A stretch of DNA of 64,000 nt. Origin: Stenotrophomonas maltophilia (GTDB lineage: Bacteria; Pseudomonadota; Gammaproteobacteria; Xanthomonadales; Xanthomonadaceae). Shown here piece by piece: positions 8,712-27,918 of this stretch (positions are counted from its first letter, which is position 1; each line of letters opens with the position of its first letter). A program made the translations under genes and the position numbers. Where the stretch lies: positions 2,984,750 to 3,048,749 of the forward strand of contig NZ_CP033877.1 in NCBI RefSeq assembly GCF_006970445.1, given 5' to 3'. Under the pieces are notes generated by a model. It made no database searches. It saw nothing but the letters and a program-made list of their open reading frames with translations, and had not been told where the DNA came from.

Positions 8712-8788
<77 letters not shown>

Positions 8789-8928: not shown

Positions 8929-9005
<77 letters not shown>

Positions 9006-16558: not shown

Positions 16559-17806
16559 TCATGTGCGCGTCTGCCCTTCACCGCGCACGACAAATCGTTC
16601 GACGGTGAGTGCTTCCAGGCCCATCGGGCCATACGCATGCAGGCGCGTGGTGGAAATGCCGATCTCGCTGCCCAGGCCCAGCTGGCCACCATCGGAGAAG
16701 CGCGATGAGGCATTGACCATCACTACCGCCGAGCGCAGCGCAGTGACGAAGCGCTCGGCATGGCCAGCATCTTCGGTCGTGATCACTTCGGTGTGGTCGG
16801 AGGTATAGCGGCGGATGTGCGCGATGGCCGCATCGAGATCGTCGACCACGCGCACGGCCAGCACCAGGTCGAGGAACTCGGCAGCGTAATCCTCCTCGGT
16901 CGCCGCCGTGCTGCCCGGCAGCAGCGCCTGCGCCTGCGCATCGGCGCGCAACTGCACGCCGCGCTCGCCGAGCGCCTGCGCCACGCGAGGCAGGAACGCT
17001 TCGGCCACGTCGCGGTGCACCAGTAACGTCTCCAGCGAATTGCAGGCCGCCGGCCGGCTGCACTTGCCATCCACCAGCAGGTCGATGGCTTTGCCGAGGT
17101 CGGCACTGGCATCCACGAACAGGTGGCAGACCCCCTTGTAGTGCTTGATCACCGGCACCCGCGCGTGTTCGGCGACGAAGCGGATCAGGCCTTCGCCGCC
17201 ACGCGGAATGGCCAGGTCGATCAGCTCATGCAGCTGCAGCAGTTCCAGCATCGCTTCGCGGCGCAGGTCGGTCAGCACGGTCACCGCCGCCGGTGGCACG
17301 CCATTGGCCTTGAGTGCCCCGGCCAGCGCCTGAGCGATGGCGGTGTTGGAATGGATCGCTTCGGAACCACCGCGCAGGATCACGCCATTGCCCGCCTTCA
17401 GGCACAATGCGGCGGCTTCGGCGGTCACGTTCGGGCGTGCCTCGTAGATCATCGCGATCACGCCCAGCGGCACGCGTACCTTCTGCACCCGGATCCCGTT
17501 TGGACGCACATCGTCGCGGGTGATCTGGCCGACCGGATCGGGCAGCGCGGCGACCTCACGCACGGCTTCGGCCATCGCGAACAGGCGTGCCGGGTCCAGC
17601 GCCAGTCGGTCGAGCATGGCACTGCCAACGCCCTTGTCACGCGCGGCAGCAAGGTCACGCGCATTGCCGGCCAGGATCAGCCCGGCATTCACTTCCAGTG
17701 CCTGGGCCATTGCCAGCAGCAGCGTGCGGCGCGCCGCACCGTCGAGGCCGGCAACGATCTGGGCCGCGTCACGGCAGGCACGCGCCTGCACTTCGATTTC
17801 GCTCAT
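16559..17806 (-). CDS. proA: Gamma-glutamyl phosphate reductase
   Basis: 415 residues. An aldehyde-dehydrogenase-like fold with the catalytic cysteine in [17 protein letters not shown], preceded by [16 protein letters not shown]. It makes glutamate-5-semialdehyde for proline synthesis. I use the ATG at 17806 because AAGGA lies 7 bases upstream. A second ATG at 17830 would overlap the proB stop as ATGA and add eight residues. It is the last gene of the arginine-proline run. Confidence 0.94.
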
Positions 17807-17826
17807 CGGGGAGTCCTTCAAACCGG

Positions 17827-18984
17827 TCATGGCAACACCAGATCGTCGCGATGGACGACACTGCCACCGTAGTTGTAGCCCAGCACGGCCTCGATGTCGC
17901 GCGAATGGCGCCCGGCGATCCGGCGCACATCATCTGAAGCGTACTGGCTGACGCCGCGCGCCACGCAGACACGGCCCTGTGGCGCGTTCCAGCACACCTG
18001 CACCATGTCGCCACGGCGGAACACGCCCTCCGCACCGGTGATGCCACCGGGCAGCAGCGAGGCGCCCTTCTCACGCATGGCCTGCGCCGCGCCGGCATCG
18101 ATCACGATCGCACCCTCGACCAGCGGTGCGTGCCGCAGCCAGTGCTTGCGGGCCGCCTCACGACTGCGCGCGGCGTGGATACGGGTACCGAACAGGCGGT
18201 CCTGGGCCAGCGCGCGCACCACGTCACCGCTGCGGCCATTGAACAGATAGGTTTCGATGCCGAGGCGACCGGCCTTCGCCGCCGCTTCCAGCTTGGTGCG
18301 CATGCCGCCGGTACCGGCGCGCGAGCCGGCGCCACCGGCCATCGCCAGCACCTCGTCACTCAGTTCCGGCACGTCGTGCAACGGCCGCGCATCGGCCGCG
18401 GTGCGCGGGTCGGCGCTGTACAGGCCGTCGATATCGGTGGCGATGAACAGTGCATCGGCATCGACCAGCGCCGCCACGGTGGCGGCCAGGTTGTCGTTGT
18501 CGCCAAGCTTGAGCTCGTCCACCGACACGGTGTCGTTCTCGTTGACCACCGGCAACGCCCCCAGGCGCAGCAGTTCGTTCAGCGTGGCGCGTGCGTTGAG
18601 GTAGCGGCGGCGGTTGCGCAGGTCGTCGTGGGTCAGCAGCACCTGCGCCACCGGGCGCTCGAAGAAGCGTTGCCAGAGCCCGATCAGCTGGGCCTGGCCG
18701 AGCGCGGCCAGCGCCTGCCGCGCCGCCATCGCCGCGCCGGGCTCGTCGGCCCGCGGCAGGATCGCGCGCCCGGCAGCGACCGCGCCGGACGACACGATCA
18801 CCACCTCTCGCCCGGCCAGCACATTGGCCGAGACGAACTGTGCCAGGCCCAGCGCGTGACGTGGCGACAAGCCGCCGCCATCGGCGGCCAGCAGGCTGCT
18901 GCCGACCTTCAGCACCGCGCGCCGCCATGGCGGCAGCGCCTGTTCCAGGAACGGCGAGGCGACGGTGGCGGCGTGCTGGGTCAT
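17827..18984 (-). CDS. proB: Glutamate 5-kinase
   Basis: 385 residues. An amino-acid kinase domain ([48 protein letters not shown]) is followed by a C-terminal PUA domain ([26 protein letters not shown]). It phosphorylates glutamate as the first step to proline, and its end overlaps proA. It lies inside a run otherwise devoted to arginine, so the two glutamate-derived pathways appear to be expressed together. Confidence 0.95.
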
Positions 18985-18995
18985 CGGTCAGGCTC

Positions 18996-19259
18996 TCAGC
19001 GGGTGTTCCATTCGTGCACGGTCAGGTCGGAGGCCTGCATCGTCACCAGCGGATCGGTGGCGATGATGGCCTGCGCCTGCGCCAGGCTCTCGACATTGCA
19101 CAGCACATAGGCGCCACCACTGCCGTCGGCGAAACCGCCGGTCAGCTGCAGCTTGCCCTGCGCCTGCAACGCATCGAGAAAATCGCGATGCGGCTGCACC
19201 GCTGCATCGTTGAAGTCCGGCCGGCGCATCGCCATCACCAGGTAGACGGTGCCCGCCAT
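18996..19259 (-). CDS. YciI-like small protein
   Basis: 87 residues with the start codon overlapping the argH stop (TGATG), and proB follows after 11 bases. The pattern [16 protein letters not shown]...HRDFLDALQAQGKLQLTGGF, then DPLVTMQASDLTVHEW, matches the YciI-like ferredoxin-fold family. This family is usually of unknown enzymatic role. Its place between argH and proB suggests co-expression, but I cannot name a reaction. Confidence 0.75.
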   Translation of the reverse strand: MAGTVYLVMAMRRPDFNDAAVQPHRDFLDALQAQGKLQLTGGFADGSGGAYVLCNVESLAQAQAIIATDPLVTMQASDLTVHEWNTR

Positions 19260-20554
19260 CAGGACAGCGCCTGCCAGCGCGCGCGCAGTTCGTCCAGGCG
19301 CAGGTCGGCGGCCGAACCCGGCGACACGCGCGCGGCGAGGCTGCCTTCCGGGGTACGCCCCTGCCCTGCGCTGTCGGCACCGGCCGCAGCGGTCTTGTAG
19401 GCCTCACGGAACGGCACGCCGGCCACGGCCGCTTCCACCGCCACGTCGGTGGCATACATGCCCGAATCGATGGCCGCACGCAGCTTGTCGTCGCGCCATT
19501 CCAGGTTGGCCAGCAGCGCCGGCAGCAGCTCCAGCGCTGCCAGGCCACGGCCGAAGCCGTGGAAGATAGCGCCCTTGGACGACTGCAGGTCGCGGTGGTA
19601 GCCCGACGGCAGCGACAGCAACTGCTCGATCTCGGTGCGCGCGGCGGCGACGCTGGCGTGGGTGGCGCGCATCAGCTCGATCACATCCGGATTGCGCTTG
19701 TTGGGCATGATCGAACTGCCGGTGGTGTACTGCGCCGGCAGCGCGACGAAGCCGAACTCGGCACTGGTGAACAACGACAGGTCCCAGGCGATGCGGCGCA
19801 GATCCAGCGTGGCGCCACCGAGCGCCTCCAGCGCGGCCAGTTCGAACTTGCCGCGCGACAGCTGTGCATAGATCGGCGAGATCTGCATGCGCGCAAAACC
19901 GAGCGCCGCCGTGGTGTGCTCTCGGTCCAGCGGCAGGTTCACGCCGTAGCCGGCGGCGGTGCCGAGCGGATTGGCATCGACCAATGCATGGGTGTCGTGC
20001 GCGCGGATGGCGTTGTCGATGAAGGCCTCGGCCCAGCCGGCCCACCACATCCCGGCCGAGGACACCACGGCACGCTGGATGTGGGTATAGCCGGGAATCG
20101 GCAGATCCTTCTCGGCCTGCGCGCGGTCCAGCGCGACCTTGGCCACGTCGGCGCTGAGCTGGGCCACGCGCAGCAGCTTCTCCTTCAGCCACAAGCGGGT
20201 GGCGACCAGGATCTGGTCGTTGCGGCTGCGGCCGGTGTGGATCTTGCGGCCCGCATCGCCGAGGCGTTCGGTCAGCCGCGCTTCGATCGCCGAGTGACCA
20301 TCTTCGTACTGGGTATCCAGCACGAAGCGGCCTTCGCGGAAGTCCTGCGCCAGGATATCCAGTTCGCGCAGCAGGCCAGCCAGTTCATCGGCGCTGAGGA
20401 TGCCGATGTGCTGCAGTCCCTGCGCATGCGCGGCGCTGGCGGCGATGTCGTGCAGGAAAAACTCGCGATCGAGGATCACGTCATCGCCGGCGAGGAAGGT
20501 CTGGATCTGTGCGTCGACAGCGACGCCGGGCTTCTGCCAAAGAAGGTCTGCCAT
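19259..20554 (-). CDS. argH: Argininosuccinate lyase
   Basis: 431 residues. The fumarase/aspartase superfamily signature [13 protein letters not shown] is present, as are HTGRSRNDQ and [10 protein letters not shown]. It splits argininosuccinate into arginine and fumarate. The ATG at 20554 (MADLLWQK) sits 20 bases after the argC stop; the longer upstream frame is inside argC. It is somewhat shorter than the E. coli enzyme. Confidence 0.95.
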
Positions 20555-20574
20555 GGGGGCTCCGGAATACGTGT

Positions 20575-21528
20575 TCAGTGCGGGATCGACGTCAGTTCGT
20601 CGATGCCCAGCGCGAGGTTGAGGTTCTGCATGGCCTGGGTGGCCGCACCCTTGAGCAGGTTGTCCAGGGTCGCCACCACGACGACCCGCTTGCCGCCCGG
20701 GGCGAGCGTGAAGCCACCGACCTGGGCACCGTGGCGACCGGCGATGCGGCTGACCCACGGCGCTTCATCCACCACTTCGATCAGGGGTTCGCCAGCGTAG
20801 GCCTGCTGGAAGCGCTCGACGATCTGTTCGCGGGTCTGCACGCGGTTCAGCCACAGGTTGGCGGTGAGCGTGATGCCCCGGAAATGCGGCGCGACGTGCG
20901 GCATGAATTCAACAGCCACGCCCAGCTGCACCGACACCTCGCGCTCGTGCACGTGGTTGGTCAGCGCATATGGCATCAGATTGTCGGCCAGCAGCTCGAC
21001 GTTGTTCTTGTCCGACGGCGTGGTACCGGCACCGGAGTAGCCGGACACACCGAAGCACTGCGGTGGGCCGGCCAGCAGGTCCAGCAGCGGATGCACCGCC
21101 AGCTGCATCGCCGTGGCATAGCAGCCCGGGTTGCTGATGTGCTTCTGGCCGTTGTAGCGGCCACGGGTCAGCTCCGGCAGGCCGTAGTACCAGCTGTTGT
21201 CGAAACGGTAGTCGGCCGAGAGATCGACGATGACGGTGTCCGGCTTCGCCGCTTCCAGCGCAGCCACGAACGGCGCGGCCAGGCCATTGGGCAGGGCCAG
21301 GATCACCGCGTCCACACCCTTGGCGGCAACCGCGTCGGCGTCCAGGTTCTCGTACTGCAGCTCGCCCTGGAATTCCGGATGGTGGTCGGACAGGCGCTGC
21401 CCGGCGCGCTCGCGCGAAGAGACAAAGGCCAGTTTCAGCCGCGGGTGCGCGGCCACCAGCTTGATCAGCTCGGCGCCGGTATGGCCGCGGGCACCGACGA
21501 TGCCAAGGGTAAAGGTCGAATCGTTCAT
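20575..21528 (-). CDS. argC: N-acetyl-gamma-glutamyl-phosphate reductase
   Basis: 317 residues. An N-terminal NAD(P)-binding loop [14 protein letters not shown] and the catalytic cysteine in [14 protein letters not shown]. It reduces acetylglutamyl phosphate to the semialdehyde in arginine synthesis. The ATG at 21528 overlaps the stop of the GNAT gene as ATGA, and this decides the start over a 16-residue longer reading. Confidence 0.95.
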
Positions 21529-22124
21529 GCGTGACTGTCCAGGCGGTACTGCAGGTGGCGCTTCACGCCCTGCCATTCCGCATCGATGATGGAGAAGATG
21601 ACGGTGTCACGCGGCGTGCCATCGGCGTGCCGCCTATGGTTGCGCAGCACGCCATCCTGCTTGGCGCCCAACCGCGCGATGGCCGTGCGCGATGCGAAGT
21701 TGAACCAGCTGGTTTCGAACACCACGCTCAGGCACTCCAGCCGCTCGAAGGCATGGCTGAGCAGCATCAGCTTGCTCTCCGAATTGACCCCGGTGCGCTG
21801 CACCGATTCGTCATACCAGGTGTAGCCGATGCTCAGGCGCGGCACGTCCGGCTGCAGATCGTAGTAGCGGGTGGTGCCGACGATCTGGTCGTTGGCATCG
21901 AACACCACGAACGGCAGCACCTTGCCTTCGGCCTGCGCCTGCAGCGCTGCCTGCACGTAGCCGGTCATGGTTTTGGCATCCGGAACCTGGGTATACCAGA
22001 GCTTTGACAACGAACCGTCGCCCAATGCCCCGCGCAGGCCATCGATATGGCTCATCTGCAGCGGCTCCAGCCGCGCATGCGCGCCAGCCAGCGTGGGAAC
22101 CCGTGTCCAATCAGCATGATTCAT
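21525..22124 (-). CDS. GNAT N-acetyltransferase, RimJ/RimL-like, in the arginine run
   Basis: 199 residues. [14 protein letters not shown] at the N-terminus, [32 protein letters not shown] and [26 protein letters not shown] are the usual blocks of RimJ/RimL-type acetyltransferases. It lies five bases after argBA and overlaps argC, so it is embedded in the operon. Its substrate is unknown. The argBA product already carries an acetylglutamate synthase domain, so this gene is not obviously needed for that step. Confidence 0.8.
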
Positions 22125-22129
22125 CGCGC

Positions 22130-23458
22130 TCAGCCCTCCAGGCTCGGCGCTCGCACGCCGCAGTGGTCGACATAGGTCCTGATGCGGTCGATGCCATCGG
22201 CACCGTACCAGAACACTTTCCAGTGACCCTGCTTGTAGCAGCCATCGGATTCGGCGTAGTAGAAATGGTTGATCGGATTGCCGTTGCGCGAACGCCAGAA
22301 CAGCTGCGGGGTTTCCTCGCGCATCACATTCCAGACCGCACGCCCCAGGCCCTCGCCCTGCGCATCATCAAGCACCGCGAACTTGTCCAGGTACACACCC
22401 TCGGCCTCGTCGGTAAGGATCACCGCAGTGCGGTAGTTCTCGCTGACGTAGGCGCGCAGCAGCGTGGTCTTCTCGAAATAGTCCGGCACCAGGGTGCGGC
22501 CGAAGCTCGATTCGATCAGCTGCTTCAAGCGCGGCAGGTCCAGTTGCTCCCATGCCGTGGCGCGCAGCACTTTCTCACCCTTGCGCACCAGCGTGCCCGA
22601 GCCCTTGTGGGTGAACAGTTCCTTGGCCAGGTCGGCCGGGCGCGTGATCGACACCGACGATTCCAGCGGCAGGCGGTCGAGCAGATCCTTGATCTGTTCG
22701 ATCTTCACCTTCATGCCACCGTGGATCCACGGCTGCGCGATCAGGTGGTCATACTCGGTGGACAGGTTGATCGAATCGATCACGTTGCCCTGCTCGTCCA
22801 GCAGGCCGCCGGTGCCGGTCAGGAAGATGATCTTGTACGGTTGCAGCTCCTGCACGAGCTCGTTGGCGGCGAAGTCGGCGTTGACGTTGAGGATCTGGCC
22901 TCCGGCGGTTTCGCCCAGGCTGGTGATGACCGGGATCGAACCGGCGCGCAGGCTGGCCTCGATCGGTGCCAGGTTGACCTTCTTCACCTCGCCGACCAGG
23001 CCGTAGGTATCCACGTCCAGATACTCGGCCTCGAACACGCCGCCGGTGATCGAGGTGGCGCGCGCACCGTTCTGCTGCAGCGCCTCGACCAGGCGCAGGT
23101 TGGACTGCTGGAACACCCGGCGCACGATCGCCAGCGCTTCCGGCGAAGTCACGCGCAGGCCGTTGACGGTCTGCTTCTCGATGCCGGCGGCCGACAGTTC
23201 AGCATCCAGCTGTGGGCCGGCGCCGTGCAGCACGATCGGGGTCAGCCCGACCTCCTGCAGGAACGACAGCGAAGAGGTCAGCGCGTCGAGGTCGTCGCGC
23301 AGCACTGCGCCGCCGACCTTGACCACGGCGAAGCGCTTGGCGTCCAGCTGCGAGAAGCGCTTGAGGTACTGGCTGATCTCCTTCGCGCTGGCCATGCTGG
23401 AAAGCAGGCGCACGATGGTCTGGCGGGTCTGGCGGTGGGGCTGGAGGGCAGGAGACAT
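22130..23458 (-). CDS. argB: Bifunctional N-acetylglutamate synthase / N-acetylglutamate kinase
   Basis: 442 residues. The N-terminal two thirds are an amino-acid kinase domain ([44 protein letters not shown]). The C-terminal part, from about residue 290, is a NAT/DUF619 acetyltransferase domain ([51 protein letters not shown]). Such fusions were characterised in Xanthomonas as carrying both first steps of arginine synthesis; they resemble vertebrate NAGS. Start: the ATG at 23458 is used, and a second Met at residue 22 is possible. Confidence 0.92.
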
Positions 23459-23533
23459 TTCGGTTTCGTCACAGGCGGCGGTCGCCGCGTTGCAGTTCCA
23501 CCCGGCCTGGGCCGGGCGGCGTTGTGGGGTCGA

Positions 23534-24622
23534 TCAGGCGCCGGCGGCGATGATCCGGTGTACGGCGTCGGTGTAGCGCTGCAGCTGGTCCAGGGTCACG
23601 AACTCATCGGCGGTATGGGCCTGGGCGATGTCGCCCGGGCCGAACACCAGCGTGGTGTAGCCACCGGCGGAGAACAGCGACGCCTCGGTCCAGAAGTCCA
23701 CCGCGTTGCCGATCGGCAGTTCCAGCGCATCGGCCACGTCGCGCGCCAGCAGGCGGCGGTTCTCGGCTTCGGCGATGTCACCAGCCGGCAGGCTTGGGCC
23801 ACGGAAGGTCTCGGTGAACACGGCGGCTTCCGGTTCGGCGAAACCGGCGAAGGTCGCCAGCAGGCCATCGATGTCCATCGACGGCAGCGGACGGAACCCG
23901 AAACGCACTTCGGCAGCCGGTGCGATCATGTTGGCCTTGATCCCACCTTCGACGCGTCCGATGTTGAAACGCAGGCCGGTCAGTCCGCCAAAGCGGGCCG
24001 AGGCCAGCGATTCCACATGGTCCAGCGCGCGGTTGCCCCAGCGCATGGCCTGGTGCAGCGCACTGGCGGCCGCATCCTGCTTGCCCGACGCGTGCCCGGC
24101 GCGGCCGGCGAACTGCATCAGCACCGAACTGATGCCACGATGCGCGAGCACGGCCTCGCTCATGGTCGGCTCGGCCACCAGCACCGCTTCATACGGCAGG
24201 CCACGCGCCAGGAACGCGGCGATGCAGCGCGGATCGTTGGCTTCCTCGTCGCTGGAGAACAGGAACGCAGCATCGCCATCGCTGGCATTGGCCGCGGCAA
24301 CCAGCGCAGCGGCGGCGCCCTTGATGTCACACACGCCCAGGCCGACCACGCGGTCGTCCAGCCGGCGCATCACATGCGGGTCGGCACTCCAGTGCGGCGA
24401 GTCGGGCACGGTATCCAGGTGCACGTTGAACAGGTACTTCGGCGTCCCACGCACGGCGTACAGGCTGACCGCACCCGCGCCATGGTCGATCACCTCGACG
24501 TTGAAGCCGGGCAGGTTCGCGCGCAGGTAATCGAAGATGCCACCGGTGGTGATCGCACGCGGCGGGTTGCGGGTGTCGAAGGACACCAGGGCCTGCAGGT
24601 GATCGAGCGTCTGTTCAAGCAT
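23534..24622 (-). CDS. argE': N-acetyl-L-citrulline deacetylase (argE')
   Basis: 362 residues of the M20 metallopeptidase family. Metal ligands are visible in FNVHLDTVPDS, GVCDIKGAAAAL, FSSDEEANDP and GPGDIAQAHTADEFV. In xanthomonads this enzyme removes acetate from acetylcitrulline rather than from acetylornithine. I assign it here because it sits directly beside the acetylornithine carbamoyltransferase and argG. Without that context it could be called acetylornithine deacetylase. Confidence 0.88.
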   Translation of the reverse strand: MLEQTLDHLQALVSFDTRNPPRAITTGGIFDYLRANLPGFNVEVIDHGAGAVSLYAVRGTPKYLFNVHLDTVPDSPHWSADPHVMRRLDDRVVGLGVCDIKGAAAALVAAANASDGDAAFLFSSDEEANDPRCIAAFLARGLPYEAVLVAEPTMSEAVLAHRGISSVLMQFAGRAGHASGKQDAAASALHQAMRWGNRALDHVESLASARFGGLTGLRFNIGRVEGGIKANMIAPAAEVRFGFRPLPSMDIDGLLATFAGFAEPEAAVFTETFRGPSLPAGDIAEAENRRLLARDVADALELPIGNAVDFWTEASLFSAGGYTTLVFGPGDIAQAHTADEFVTLDQLQRYTDAVHRIIAAGA

Positions 24623-24637
24623 GAATCAACAATCCTG

Positions 24638-24700
24638 GTAGTGCCGGCCGCTGGCCGGCAACGATGTCGGTGGTGAGTGCCGGCCAGCGGCCGGCACTAC
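24638..24700. repeat. SMAG palindromic pair between argG and argE'
   Basis: Inverted GTAG units at 24638-24662 and 24676-24700 lie inside the arginine run. They could stabilise or separate segments of a long mRNA. Confidence 0.9.
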
Positions 24701-24709
24701 CGTCACAGG

Positions 24710-25906
24710 TCAACCGCGGTTCACCTGTGCATACAGGGTGGAGCTCATGCCGAACAGCTTGATGAAGCCTTCGGCCTCCTCCACGCCCCAGTCGGCCGAC
24801 TGCGCGTAGGTGGCGCCCTTGGTGTTGAGCAGGTGCGGCGACTTCACCGCCACCGCATCGACGCGGCCACCACGGGTTTCCAGCACCACTTCGCCGTTGA
24901 CCTTGGCCTGCGAGGACTTCAGGAACGCCTCGATGTCGGTCTTCAGCGGGTCGTGGTAGAAGCCTTCGTACACCAGCTCCACCCACTTGCGCGCCACGTC
25001 CGGCTTGAAGCGGTTCTGCTGCTTGGTCAGCACGGCATCTTCCAGCGCGCGGTGTGCAGCCAGCAGCGAGACCAGGCCCGGGGCCTCGAACACGATGCGG
25101 CCCTTCAGGCCGATCACGGTGTCGCCGGTGTAGACGCCGCGGCCAACGCCATACGGGGCGAACAGCTTGTTGAGCTGGGCCAGGATCTGGTCGCCCGGCA
25201 GCGCCTTGCCGTTCAGTTCAACCGCTTCGCCTTCGACGAACTTCAGGGTCACGCTCAGCGCCTGTTCCGGCCACTCGCTGCGCGGTGCGCACCAGCCACG
25301 TGCGCCTTCGCCCGGGGCTTCCCAACGGTCGATCTCGCCGCCGGACATGGTCAGGCCCAGCAGGTTTTCGTTGATGGTGTAGGCCTGCTGCTTGGCACGC
25401 ACGCCGAAGCCACGCTCTTCCAGGTACTTCTGCTCGTAGGCGCGGGTCTGGGTGTGTTCCTTCTGGATCTCGCGGATCGGCGCGATGATCTGGTAGTCGC
25501 CCAGCGCCTTCACGGCCAGGTCGAAGCGGACCTGGTCGTTGCCCATGCCGGTGCAGCCGTGGGCGATGATGTTGGTGCCCAGCTCGGCAGCACGCTTCAG
25601 TGCGGCATCGACGATCAGGTAGCGGTCCGAGACCAGCAGCGGGTACTGGCCCTGGTAGCCTTCGCCGGCCCACACGAACGGCTTGACGAAGCCTTCCCAG
25701 ATGGCCGGGCCACCATTGACGGTGACATGGCTGGCCACGCCCAGCTCGGCGGCGCGCTTCTCGATGAAATCGCGCTCTTCATCATCCACGCCGCCGGTGT
25801 CGGCGAACACGGTGTGCACGTTGTAGCCACGCTCCTGCAGGTACGGCACGCAGAAGCTGGTATCCAGGCCGCCGGAGAAGGCGAGAACGACGTCTTTGTT
25901 GCTCAT
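24710..25906 (-). CDS. argG: Argininosuccinate synthase
   Basis: 398 residues. The ATP-pyrophosphatase P-loop [16 protein letters not shown] is near the N-terminus, with [15 protein letters not shown] following. It condenses citrulline and aspartate. In this pathway the citrulline comes from acetylcitrulline via argE'. The ATG at 25906 ([13 protein letters not shown]) is used; the frame extends upstream into a repeat. It lies between two palindromic pairs. Confidence 0.96.
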
Positions 25907-25938
25907 GGGGGTCAGGTCCACTTGGGGATGGGAATTCG

Positions 25939-26024: not shown

Positions 26025-27035
26025 CTAGCGCCCGGCAACCGCGGCCATGATCGCCTTCTGCACGTGCAGTCGGTTCTCGGCTTCGTTGATGGCGATGCAC
26101 TGCGGCGAATCCATCACCGCATCTGTGGCCTTCACGTTGCGGCGCAGCGGCAGGCAGTGGCTGAACACACCGTTGTTGGTCAGCGCCATCTTCCGTTCGT
26201 CGACGATGAAGTGCTTGAACTGGTCGCGGATCGGCTTTTCCGGTTCCCAGTTGCCGAAGAACGGCAGCGCGCCCCAGCTCTTTGCGTAGACCACGTCGGC
26301 GCCGGCGTAGGCGCTGTCGATGTCATGGCTGATCTTCAGCGAGCCACCGCTCTCGGCCACGTTCTGCTCGGCCCAACCCATGTAGCGGTCGTCGAGGATG
26401 TAGTCGGCGGTCGGGCACAGCAGGGTCACGTCCATGCCCATGCGGGTGGCGATGGTCAGCGCCGAATTGGCAACGGCGGTGTTCAGCGGCTTGGGGTGGT
26501 AGGTCCAGGTCAGCACGTACTTCTTGCCACGCAGGTCCTGGGTACCGAAGTGCTCCTGCAGGGCCATGATGTGGGCCAGCTCCTGGCACGGGTGGGTGAT
26601 GGTCTCCATGTTGATGACCGGCACCGGCGAGTACTTGGCGAAGCTGTTGAGGACGATGTCCTGGCGGTCGTAGGCCCAGTCGATGAACTTGGGGAACGCA
26701 CGCACGGCGATGATGTCGCAGTAACGGCCCAGCACCTTGGCCACTTCAGCGATGTGCTCTTCGGTGTCGCCGTCCATCACCGTGCCGAGGTTGAACTCGA
26801 TCGGCCACGCATCCTTGCCCGGCTGCAGCACCACCGCGTGGGCGCCAAGCTGGAACGCGCCCAGCTCGAAGCTGGTGCGGGTGCGCATGGACGGGTTGAA
26901 GAACACCAGCGCGATCGACTTGCCCTTGAGCTGGTCGCCGAGCTTGTTGCGCTTGAACAGCGCGGCCTGGGTCAGCAGCGCGTCGAGATCGCTGCGGCTC
27001 CAGTCCTGGGTGTTCAGGAAGTGCTTGGGGGACAT
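26025..27035 (-). CDS. argF': N-acetyl-L-ornithine carbamoyltransferase (argF')
   Basis: 336 residues. Carbamoyl-phosphate binding motif FFNPSMRTRTSFE (about residues 45-57) and ITHPCQELAHIMALQEHFG. The family proline-rich loop seen in the xanthomonad acetylornithine enzyme appears as WTYHPKPLNTAVANS. The reaction is acetylornithine plus carbamoyl phosphate to acetylcitrulline. Two adjacent ATGs occur; the second, at 27035, is 6 bases from AAGGA and is used. It is the first structural gene of the arginine-proline run and follows the leader with the attenuator. Confidence 0.93.
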   Translation of the reverse strand: MSPKHFLNTQDWSRSDLDALLTQAALFKRNKLGDQLKGKSIALVFFNPSMRTRTSFELGAFQLGAHAVVLQPGKDAWPIEFNLGTVMDGDTEEHIAEVAKVLGRYCDIIAVRAFPKFIDWAYDRQDIVLNSFAKYSPVPVINMETITHPCQELAHIMALQEHFGTQDLRGKKYVLTWTYHPKPLNTAVANSALTIATRMGMDVTLLCPTADYILDDRYMGWAEQNVAESGGSLKISHDIDSAYAGADVVYAKSWGALPFFGNWEPEKPIRDQFKHFIVDERKMALTNNGVFSHCLPLRRNVKATDAVMDSPQCIAINEAENRLHVQKAIMAAVAGR

Positions 27036-27142
27036 CATCTTTCCTTGCGAGGCGGCGCCGGGTTCGACGCAGTGGAAGGGAAAAGCAGGAACCAAAGGTG
27101 GAGCGAAAAGGTTGCAGTTGCAGCTTTCAGAACGCAGAAACG

Positions 27143-27173
27143 AAAAAACCCAGCCGGCGGGCTGGGTTTTTTT
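27143..27173 (-). terminator. Intrinsic terminator in the argF' leader (attenuator stem 3:4)
   Basis: On the minus strand ACCCAGCC (27167-27160), loop CGCC, GGCTGGGT (27155-27148) form a perfect 8-bp stem. Six T follow (27148-27143 region) and six to seven A precede it. It stands about 110 bases before the argF' start codon, so it would stop transcription before the operon. The flanking A and T tracts make it able to work in both directions. Confidence 0.88.
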
Positions 27174-27224
27174 CGGACGAACAGCAAAAAGCTCCGGTTA
27201 CCCAGCGAGGATGTGGGGTTCCGG
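27143..27224 (-). promoter_or_regulatory. Candidate arginine attenuator with three alternative hairpins
   Basis: On the minus strand four segments are seen. Segment 1 is CCGGAACCC (27224-27216). Segment 2 is GCTGGGTAACCGG (27206-27194). Segment 3 is ACCCAGCC (27167-27160). Segment 4 is GGCTGGGT (27155-27148). Segment 1 pairs with GGGTAACCGG of segment 2 (8 bp with a small internal loop). Segment 2 GCTGGGT pairs perfectly with segment 3 ACCCAGC (7 bp). Segment 3 pairs with segment 4 as the terminator. Segment 1 begins directly after the codons for Arg-Ala-Arg-Arg of the leader peptide. Structures were read by eye; no folding was computed. Confidence 0.75.
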
Positions 27225-27299
27225 TCGACGCGCACGCGAGGTCATGCCAGACGCCTGTCGGGCTGCGCTGCTGTCGTGCTGGAAGTCGGTGAGCTTCAT
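27198..27299 (-). CDS. Putative arginine leader peptide of the argF'-proA run
   Basis: A 33-residue frame, ATG at 27299 and TAA at 27200-27198. It has four arginines, three in the cluster RARR (residues 22-25, codons CGT GCG CGT CGA). None uses CGC, the codon I would expect to be most common in this GC-rich genome. The stop codon falls inside attenuator segment 2. I see no Shine-Dalgarno site, but GATATT at 27310-27305 could be a -10 box placing the start site on the ATG, that is, a leaderless message. The inferred role is to sense arginyl-tRNA by ribosome stalling. Not confirmed. Confidence 0.7.
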   Translation of the reverse strand: MKLTDFQHDSSAARQASGMTSRARRPEPHILAG

Positions 27300-27354
27300 G
27301 GTCAAATATCTTTGCATGCGCCCGGGGCCGGCGCAAGGGGCCGGGGTCGCAGAA

Positions 27355-27918
27355 TCAGGGATTGCTGGCAGTGCCCTGCTCGGGGCCGACCCAGGGAGTG
27401 ATCGACACCCGGATCTTGAGCCGGTTGCCGGGGTCTTCCGGCAGCCGCGAGCGGTACTTGGTGCCCTTGTAGACGTAATCCACGTCGTAGGCGATGGGCC
27501 GGCGGAATTCACGCCCGACCGGCACGATGCGGCAGTCACGGGTCAGCATCGGGCCATTGTTGGCCGGCGCCGGAGCCGGCGTCTCGGTTCCGACCTCCTC
27601 AACGGCCTCCTCATCGCTGCGCTTGAACATCGAGCGCACCGAATCCCAGAAGCGGCTGATCCGGCCCTTGTCCTCAACCGGCTCCTCGCCGGTCACGTTG
27701 ACCGGGGCCAGGGTCCGGGTCGAGACCGGCTCGCAGTGCTCTTCGGTGCGGGTCGCGCGCAGGGTCTGGAACACCGGCTCAACGTTCAGCACCTGGGCGT
27801 AATCGAACTTCACGTTCTCCACGATCACCACCCGGTTGCGGGGCTCGGCCTCCTGGGCCAGCACCACGGCGGGCAGCGCCGACAGGCAGGCCAGGGTCAG
27901 CAACGCGGTGGATTTCAT
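27355..27918 (-). CDS. Putative periplasmic protein with a 17-kDa-antigen-like C-terminus
   Basis: 187 residues. A clear signal peptide ends at VVLAQ (residue 22). The C-terminal block VGREFRRPIAYDVDYVYKGTKYRSRLPEDPGNRLKIRV resembles the last part of glycine-zipper 17-kDa surface-antigen proteins. The glycine zipper itself is replaced by an acidic stretch around residues 80-115. No function can be assigned. The ATG at 27918 is preferred over a long upstream frame because it starts the signal peptide. Its stop is 55 bases from the arginine leader peptide. Confidence 0.65.
   Translation of the reverse strand: MKSTALLTLACLSALPAVVLAQEAEPRNRVVIVENVKFDYAQVLNVEPVFQTLRATRTEEHCEPVSTRTLAPVNVTGEEPVEDKGRISRFWDSVRSMFKRSDEEAVEEVGTETPAPAPANNGPMLTRDCRIVPVGREFRRPIAYDVDYVYKGTKYRSRLPEDPGNRLKIRVSITPWVGPEQGTASNP

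Follow-up and report, generated by a model that had tools for sequence, protein, structure and literature searches.

A 64-kb stretch of Stenotrophomonas maltophilia DNA (contig NZ_CP033877.1, positions 2,984,750 to 3,048,749), which we call the window and whose positions serve as coordinates throughout, carries on its minus strand an operon for arginine biosynthesis that is preceded, on the same strand, by a short leader. This leader lies between an uncharacterised gene (ending at 27355) and argF' (starting at 27038), and is followed, in this order, by argF', argG, argE, argB, a gene of GNAT type, argC, argH, proB and proA. From the evidence set out below we hold, with considerable confidence, that the leader controls the argF'-argG-argE-argB-argC-argH(-proB-proA) operon as a ribosome-mediated transcription attenuator responsive to arginine supply, and that it very probably turns the arginine genes on only when the ribosome is short of arginine.

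The leader region of the arginine operon

The leader contains a 33-codon open reading frame (ORF) with its ATG at 27299 and its end at 27198 (minus strand), which encodes MKLTDFQHDSSAARQASGMTSRARRPEPHILAG and in which the codons for R22-A23-R24-R25 occupy 27236-27225 (minus strand). An earlier sequence-only reading had given this frame and its Arg-Ala-Arg-Arg correctly to the base, together with the geometry of a trp-type switch: segment 1 does begin one base past the last Arg codon (27224), the TAA stop does lie inside segment 2 (27206-27194), and 30 bases do separate the stop from the 8-bp stem of an intrinsic terminator (27167-27160 with 27155-27148). GCTGGGT in segment 2 (27206-27200) can pair over 7 bp with ACCCAGC in the first arm of the terminator (27167-27161). 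NCBIfam matches bear out the run from argF' to proA, in which the GNAT-type gene lies between argB and argC. Named Stenotrophomonas records have an argF' that is 100% identical to that of the window across the matched part. The features are as follows.

27331..27336, minus strand: -35-like element TTGCGC (by eye, consensus match only)
27308..27313, minus strand: -10-like element AAAGAT, 17 nt past the -35-like element (by eye)
27178..27301, minus strand: match to the whole Rfam model RF02242 (Xoo5), 102.5 bits (covariance-model match)
27198..27299, minus strand: leader ORF of 33 codons, probably leaderless or nearly so (sequence and relatives)
27225..27263, minus strand: conserved peptide core, here A-R-Q-A-S-G-M-T-S-R-A-R-R (conservation, pN/pS)
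27225..27227, minus strand: last Arg codon, CGA, the proposed stall codon in the A site (codon conservation)
27216..27224, minus strand: segment 1, CCGGAACCC, directly after the last Arg codon (duplex swap test in favour, contiguous-helix count not above shuffles)
27194..27206, minus strand: segment 2, GCTGGGTAACCGG, with the TAA stop inside (pairing comparisons)
27160..27167, minus strand: segment 3, the 5' arm of the terminator, ACCCAGCC (sequence, covariation)
27148..27155, minus strand: segment 4, the 3' arm of the terminator, GGCTGGGT, forming an 8-bp stem with segment 3 (sequence)
27143..27148, minus strand: U tract and predicted termination point, the T at 27148 doubling as the last base of the 3' arm (sequence)
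26025..27038, minus strand: argF', N-acetylornithine carbamoyltransferase, first gene of the operon (NF003384, 640.6 bits)
16559..25930, minus strand: rest of the run, argG, argE, argB, the GNAT-type gene, argC, argH, proB and proA (NCBIfam)

The gene for the GNAT-type acetyltransferase (21525-22124, minus strand), between argB and argC, has weak NCBIfam matches only. The uncharacterised gene upstream of the leader (27355-27900) is on the same strand, and a relative of it precedes the leader in many compared loci.

A conserved peptide core ending in a rare arginine codon

Regions upstream of argF' were compared in 171 of the 193 genomes of the window's family that have this gene, 22 genomes lying outside the sample; the 171 loci comprise the window, 30 found through the Xoo5 model, 119 chosen by the position of argF' alone (L031-L149) and 21 further loci found through Xoo5 (L150-L170). 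The Xoo5 model was rejected as the sole anchor, as 31 of the 119 argF'-anchored genomes had no match to it at E <= 0.001 and all 119 hold the motif. Other families of the order are labelled f2 to f12, and the set of 201 distinct leaders used below consists of 161 from the window's family and 40 from f2, f3 and f12. A remote set of 41 leaders, used for the ratio of nonsynonymous to synonymous variation (pN/pS) and for codon counts, includes one member of the family (L217). One leader, L139, has no in-frame stop within 46 codons after the Ser of the core, and is an exception in the core and terminator counts.

A near-invariant core, A-x-M-A-[AS]-G-M-T-S-R-A-R-R, is present upstream of argF' in 171 of 171 family loci, including the 119 picked by argF' alone, and in 40 leaders of three further families. 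Among 163 distinct family sequences, Ala(-8), Ala(-5), Ser, the first two Arg and the Ala between them occur in all 163, Met(-2), Thr and the last Arg in 162, Gly in 160 and Met(-6) in 151, such that RAR is found in 163 and RARR in 162. Codons for these residues vary synonymously (for Ala(-5), GCG 88, GCC 66, GCT 8 and GCA 1; for the core Gly, GGC 111, GGG 36, GGA 8 and GGT 5), and the residues ahead of the core vary freely. Across the 201 distinct leaders pN/pS is 0.22 in the core, as against 1.17 in the preceding and 0.94 in the following codons, and it falls to 0.11 on ten core codons when Ser and the last Arg, among others, are omitted. Judged by this pattern of substitution, the leader ORF is under coding-type selection. 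RARR is followed by P in 144 of the 163 distinct family leaders and otherwise by R, L, V or M, with C, T and N elsewhere, and the nearest ATG lies 20 or 21 codons ahead of the core Ser in 163 of the 201 distinct leaders.

CGA serves as the last Arg codon in 194 of the 201 distinct leaders, compared with 12 of the 1,023 Arg codons in the argF' frames of 54 loci. At each of the first two core Arg positions, a single leader departs from CGC or CGT. CGA, which is decoded by an inosine transfer RNA (tRNA), is probably a slow codon; among the 30 of 65 tRNA matches examined in the window's genome, the only Arg tRNA is TCT. The core SRARR with CGA as its last Arg codon is found in all of the best 80 of 565 confirmed stretches from named close relatives, which include Stenotrophomonas, Xanthomonas, Pseudoxanthomonas, Lysobacter and Luteimonas; eight of these 80 vary just before SRARR (six Gly to Ser, one Gly to Val and one Met to Ile). 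A search of the PDB with the leader peptide returned no relatives.

The core Ser (27237-27239 in the window, minus strand) is encoded by TCG in 41 of 41 leaders of the remote set and 154 of 163 family leaders, a codon that makes up about 40% of Ser codons (341/856) in argF' frames, and the first core Arg codon is CGT in 78 of 201 leaders versus 96 of 1,023 in argF'. This usage beyond that of argF' suggests a constraint at the RNA level. Two tRNA-Pro(cgg) genes stand near each other elsewhere in the window (8712-8788 and 8929-9005, plus strand); their anticodon matches the CCG that usually follows the leader CGA, and no link is claimed. One record titled Bacillus subtilis subsp. subtilis SK7B5 (L297, JAHREJ010000037.1) holds a Stenotrophomonas-like argF' region (93% identity) with the leader, and is probably mislabelled or contaminated.

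A predicted terminator and a probable competing antiterminator

An intrinsic terminator follows the leader in 212 of 212 cases, as against 9% when the same scan is applied to shuffled regions. Segment 2 and the first arm of the terminator (segment 3) share a contiguous complement of at least 6 bp in 174 of the 201 leaders and of at least 7 bp in 169, in keeping with the complementarity that the sequence-only reading had described for the window; shuffled stop regions reach these lengths in 12% and 2.8% of cases, and a different part of the leader does so in 1 and 0 of 201. The commonest pair classes are GCTGGGT/ACCCAGC (59), GCTGGGT/GCCCAGC (51) and GCCGGGT/ACCCGGC (27).

Compensatory change, which the same reading had proposed to look for in segments 1 to 4, was assessed in the 155 of 201 leaders that have the stop 13 codons after the Ser and a CC[CT][AG]GC terminator (149 distinct rows). 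It was found at one pair of the 2:3 helix (T-A in 99, C-G in 27, T-G in 15); 2:3 is the only listed helix with such two-sided change. By these comparisons, the predicted antiterminator 2:3, which is mutually exclusive with the terminator 3:4, is conserved, with covariation at one pair.

Duplex energies, calculated for 161 of the 201 leaders with a segment's own partner, with partners swapped between leaders and with shuffled partners, were -14.94, -13.44 and -11.04 for 1:2, and -15.36, -14.33 and -8.31 for 2:3, compared with -4.35, -4.83 and -4.75 for the control pairing 1:3. The own partner beat the swapped mean in 120 of 161 leaders for 1:2, in 92 for 2:3 and in 41 for the control. In folds of 199 of the 201 leaders, 2:3 forms in 171 when the ribosome edge is set as if its A site held the last Arg codon, and the terminator forms in 198 when the ribosome is placed at the stop. 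In the window itself a ribosome with R24 in its P site would reach to about 27215, just beyond segment 1, given the footprint that we take a ribosome to have.

The leader ORF lies within the Xoo5 RNA

The match to Xoo5 (RF02242) extends over the full length of the model, at 27301-27178, and scores 102.5 bits against a gathering score of 50 bits. Xoo5 was described in Xanthomonas oryzae by Liang et al. 2011 (PMC3039613), whose main text presents it as a non-coding small RNA (sRNA) of no known function, with bands of about 130 and 100 nt on Northern blots, a length of 124 nt based on 5' rapid amplification of cDNA ends (RACE; their Table 2) and a cloned 3' end, and a level that changes with growth phase; arginine and ornithine are not mentioned in that main text. 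The region is the same as that of the present leader, and the Rfam model contains the leader ORF and stops short of the terminator. As the ORF shows coding-type selection, the "non-coding" part of the label fails on this reading of the sequences.

Since the Rfam model and the mapped RNA are both 124 nt long, we infer that 27301 corresponds to the RACE 5' end, which places the start of Xoo5 2 nt ahead of the ATG of the leader. The last base of AAAGAT is 7 nt upstream of this position (by eye), and relatives have a "-10" ending in AT (GAGGAT or GAGCAT) at the same place. TTGC, at about the distance from the ATG that TTGCGC has in the window, is the commonest upstream signal among the leaders, with T at 57-59% at -38/-37, and the column frequencies of the leader alignment reveal no purine-rich Shine-Dalgarno position. 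The RACE end near the ATG, the promoter-like spacing and the missing Shine-Dalgarno position together indicate a message that is probably leaderless or nearly so.

Distribution across the order

The window's own genome has a single copy of the core as a DNA pattern, which is present in 119 of 250 genomes of the order. By family, according to tallies made by hand, it is found in 54 of 54 genomes of the window's family, 51 of 51 of f12, 3 of 3 of f2 and 8 of 10 of f3, as well as in three genomes of f8 and f9, where the matches examined have no argF' beside them. For f12, 29 genomes were examined at the argF' position. The core precedes argF' by 115-240 nt, with the two on one strand, in 27 loci of f3 and f12, and three f2 loci have the same arrangement; in the leaders of these three families the two ends of the peptide are unrelated (for example ...AYQAAGMTSRARRCCSA*, ...ARLASGMTSRARRPG*, where the asterisk is the stop). 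In a search across the class, the pattern was matched in 12 of 321 genomes, four of which belong to the window's family; of the nine matches in the other eight genomes, only one has Ser at the key place, and argF' was found on none of the stretches. The second copies of the motif that were examined (L218-L223) are pieces of other frames and lack argF'; in L206, one of the matches from the class, an argC-like frame follows 517 nt downstream, but neither leader nor terminator was seen between them by eye, and the match was taken as due to chance.

In the deeper families argF' identity is mostly 61-67% and the core is absent, while the order argF'-argG-argE-argB-argC is kept as far as the examined stretches extend. 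Among 20 upstream regions from these families (f4-f10), the scan found a terminator in 18 and an Arg-rich leader in 17, with a mean of 4.0 Arg per 6 codons as against 1.43 in chain-sampled sequence (the combined p of 2e-11 is too small, as related loci are treated as independent). Examples are PRRRRV, LRRRRRS, RRNRRR and RRRSRRP, the weakest being some of f7 (LRRSW), and a further RRRR frame was noted by eye in L253. CGA accounts for 26 of the 117 Arg codons of the deep-family leaders, and 11 of the 17 have a 2:3 complement of at least 6 bp. These Arg-rich leaders speak for the Arg codons as the sensor. In G201, a genome of f5, the argF' operon is kept and leader and terminator are both absent (L237 and L263), an apparent loss of the attenuator as far as its sequence goes.

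Control of arginine pathways is usually ascribed to the ArgR protein or, in Firmicutes, to T-boxes, and Pseudomonas has an ArgR of AraC type. The C-terminal domain of ArgR (PF02863) was found in none of 60 genomes of the window's family, a search that did not extend to other regulator types such as the AraC-type ArgR, and in none of 20 genomes of f2, f3 and f12; the same search gave matches in 8 of 14 control genomes. Among 40 other genomes of the order it was found in seven, all of them in f11 (8 genomes). There, seven of eight genomes have ArgR at about 1.4-1.5 kb from an argF of a distant type (37-42% identity; for example G207:C17:19494-22038), and the GMTSRARR pattern is absent, an apparent exchange of both regulator and argF type.

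Proposed mechanism and its alternatives

From features read directly in the sequence (the ORF, its core, the CGA codon, the pairings with their covariation, the terminator, the operon and the ArgR C-terminal domain that was not found) we infer the direction of the response, the stall site, the slowness of CGA, the role of the peptide and termination in vivo. RNA polymerase would start about 2 nt ahead of the ATG of the leader, with a ribosome following on the nearly leaderless message. When charged tRNA-Arg is scarce, the ribosome would wait at RARR, above all at the slow CGA, covering segment 1; segments 2 and 3 would then pair, the terminator would be blocked and the arginine genes would be made. 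When arginine is plentiful, the ribosome would reach the stop and cover segment 2, the 3:4 terminator would form, and transcription would end near 27143, leaving a short RNA that is the likely source of "Xoo5". This is in essence the trp-type arginine attenuation of the sequence-only reading, which gains support from the conserved Arg frame and the alternative pairing in four families of the order, and the comparison with relatives that it had called for also found Arg-rich leaders at the same place in most deeper ones. The identity with Xoo5, the apparent start 2 nt before the ATG, the near-fixed CGA and the conservation of the core at the amino-acid level go beyond it.

Several observations weigh against this attenuator. 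Data on the response of the leader to arginine were absent from the literature searched. Folding, also suggested in the earlier reading, lends no help: the window's leader alone is not more strongly folded than its shuffles (z -1.08), so that the evidence for the switch is comparative, not thermodynamic. A contiguous 1:2 helix of at least 5 bp is present in 135 of 201 leaders (67%) versus 71% of shuffles, and one of at least 6 bp in 54 (27%) versus 37%; the duplex swap test was adopted after this statistic had failed to beat shuffles, and both are reported here. Folds without a ribosome are mixed (2:3 in 108 of 199, 1:2 with at least 5 pairs in 70 of 199), which makes segment 1 a weak protector in many species, and segment 1 is the weakest part of the switch. 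The predicted terminated RNA measures 159 nt (27301-27143), as against 124 nt for the mapped Xoo5, whose 3' end must accordingly fall before the terminator; the shorter RNA could stem from processing or an incomplete clone. The only Arg codons available to the sensor in the core are three. In the deeper families the Arg-rich leaders are uneven, with only 8 of 17 reaching p < 0.05 singly, and the arrangement is absent in the single f5 region (L237) and in one of five f9 regions (L249).

The conservation of GMTS suggests that the peptide aids stalling as a nascent chain, because sensing by codons alone would leave the adjacent residues free to vary; from within the exit tunnel, the GMTSRAR peptide that is fixed in this clade would probably favour waiting at the last Arg codon. 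We put forward tentatively, as an idea with somewhat less than an even chance of being right, that the attenuator has evolved into a nascent-chain-assisted sensor, in which GMTSRAR makes one rare CGA a sharp gauge of Arg-tRNA (or arginine), replacing both ArgR and the Arg-rich runs seen in the deeper relatives, on a leaderless message.

A stronger role for the peptide, namely as the sensor itself in place of tRNA-Arg supply, appears unlikely; on this view the nascent GMTSRARR would bind free arginine or an intermediate of the pathway inside the tunnel and thereby halt the ribosome, in the manner of TnaC and tryptophan. A 13-codon core that is conserved in its amino acids with third positions free (pN/pS 0.22, or 0.11 on ten codons) and a chain that has grown to 25-26 residues by the last Arg in 163 of 201 leaders would suit such an arrest peptide, and other leaders, such as Salmonella orf34/speF, are described as joining Arg codons with a conserved peptide; yet a stall at RARR masks segment 1 and would turn the genes on, the opposite of what arginine as an end-product ligand should do, the deeper relatives have unrelated Arg-rich peptides that fit codon sensing, and a fixed rare CGA would be needless. 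Arrest peptides of SecM type (RAG/P, RAPP) likewise have a short conserved Arg-Ala run near the proposed stall that is then mostly followed by Pro. SecM is reported to require its Pro, unlike the leader here, in which Pro after RARR is common but dispensable, and this speaks against arrest of SecM type.

We think it quite improbable that Xoo5 is mainly a trans-acting small RNA, or that its peptide acts in trans, with its place before argF' incidental. All 171 of the 171 family loci have the leader ahead of argF', the window's own genome has the motif once and the examined off-target matches are pieces of other frames; conservation is of coding type, and Arg-rich leaders substitute for it in the deeper families. 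These facts stand against the discrete RNA of about 130 and 100 nt with its growth-phase dependence, as reported for X. oryzae, a 3' end that does not coincide with the terminator, and the precedent of Sinorhizobium meliloti rnTrpL/peTrpL, attenuator products described as acting in trans; a role in trans would, moreover, add to the role in cis. That the locus holds an ordinary terminator of the upstream gene and a chance ORF, without regulation, is hardly credible: intergenic terminators are common and the upstream gene (27355-27900, minus strand) runs in the same direction, but the core in 171 of 171 loci, the near-fixed CGA, the 2:3 complementarity with compensatory change and a promoter-like element at a nearly constant distance from the start codon all speak against it.

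Relation to known attenuators

The attenuator proposed here shares with the classical trp, his, leu, thr, ilv and pheA systems of enterobacteria a leader ORF with codons for the end product, putative segments 1 to 4 with the stop in segment 2, an intrinsic terminator and a biosynthetic operon downstream. It differs from them in its amino acid, arginine, in its nearly leaderless message, in a peptide conserved at the amino-acid level and in having only three control codons in this clade. The leu attenuator uses the rare control codon CUA, comparable with the CGA here.

The trpL leader (rnTrpL/peTrpL) of S. meliloti is alike in having a leaderless leader ORF, a terminated transcript that is a small RNA, and control by attenuation alone, as described in PMC7298713; it differs in responding to tryptophan and in the trans functions demonstrated there. 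In Salmonella, the upstream ORF orf34 (speFL) of speF has consecutive Arg codons in a conserved peptide, and at low arginine the ribosome is described as pausing at these codons, with a change in RNA fold (PMC6386406). In contrast to the present leader, that system precedes a catabolic gene, has an unrelated peptide (HIRRT), and depends, by the same account, on Rho, RNase G and the accessibility of the ribosome-binding site instead of an intrinsic terminator with trp-like segments. The carAB leader of Pseudomonas aeruginosa is similar in combining a leader peptide and possible attenuation in the arginine/pyrimidine pathway, and different in that its source ascribes the attenuation to pyrimidines and in the gene concerned.

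The literature searched held no established arginine-specific attenuator of trp type, and none for this leader; most texts in subscription journals and the survey of Vitreschak et al. 2004 lie outside that scope. The main text of Naville and Gautheret 2010 (PMC2965389) does not mention arginine, and a survey of Actinobacteria (PMC1262725) describes attenuators for his, thr and phe and treats arginine under T-boxes.

Implications

If the proposal is true, the leader would be an arginine-specific attenuator of trp type that covers several families. It would explain the Rfam "sRNA" Xoo5 and suggest how a large clade lives without ArgR. With simple Arg-rich leaders at one end and a fixed peptide core at the other, it would offer a natural series in which the point where codon sensing gives way to nascent-chain sensing becomes directly testable.
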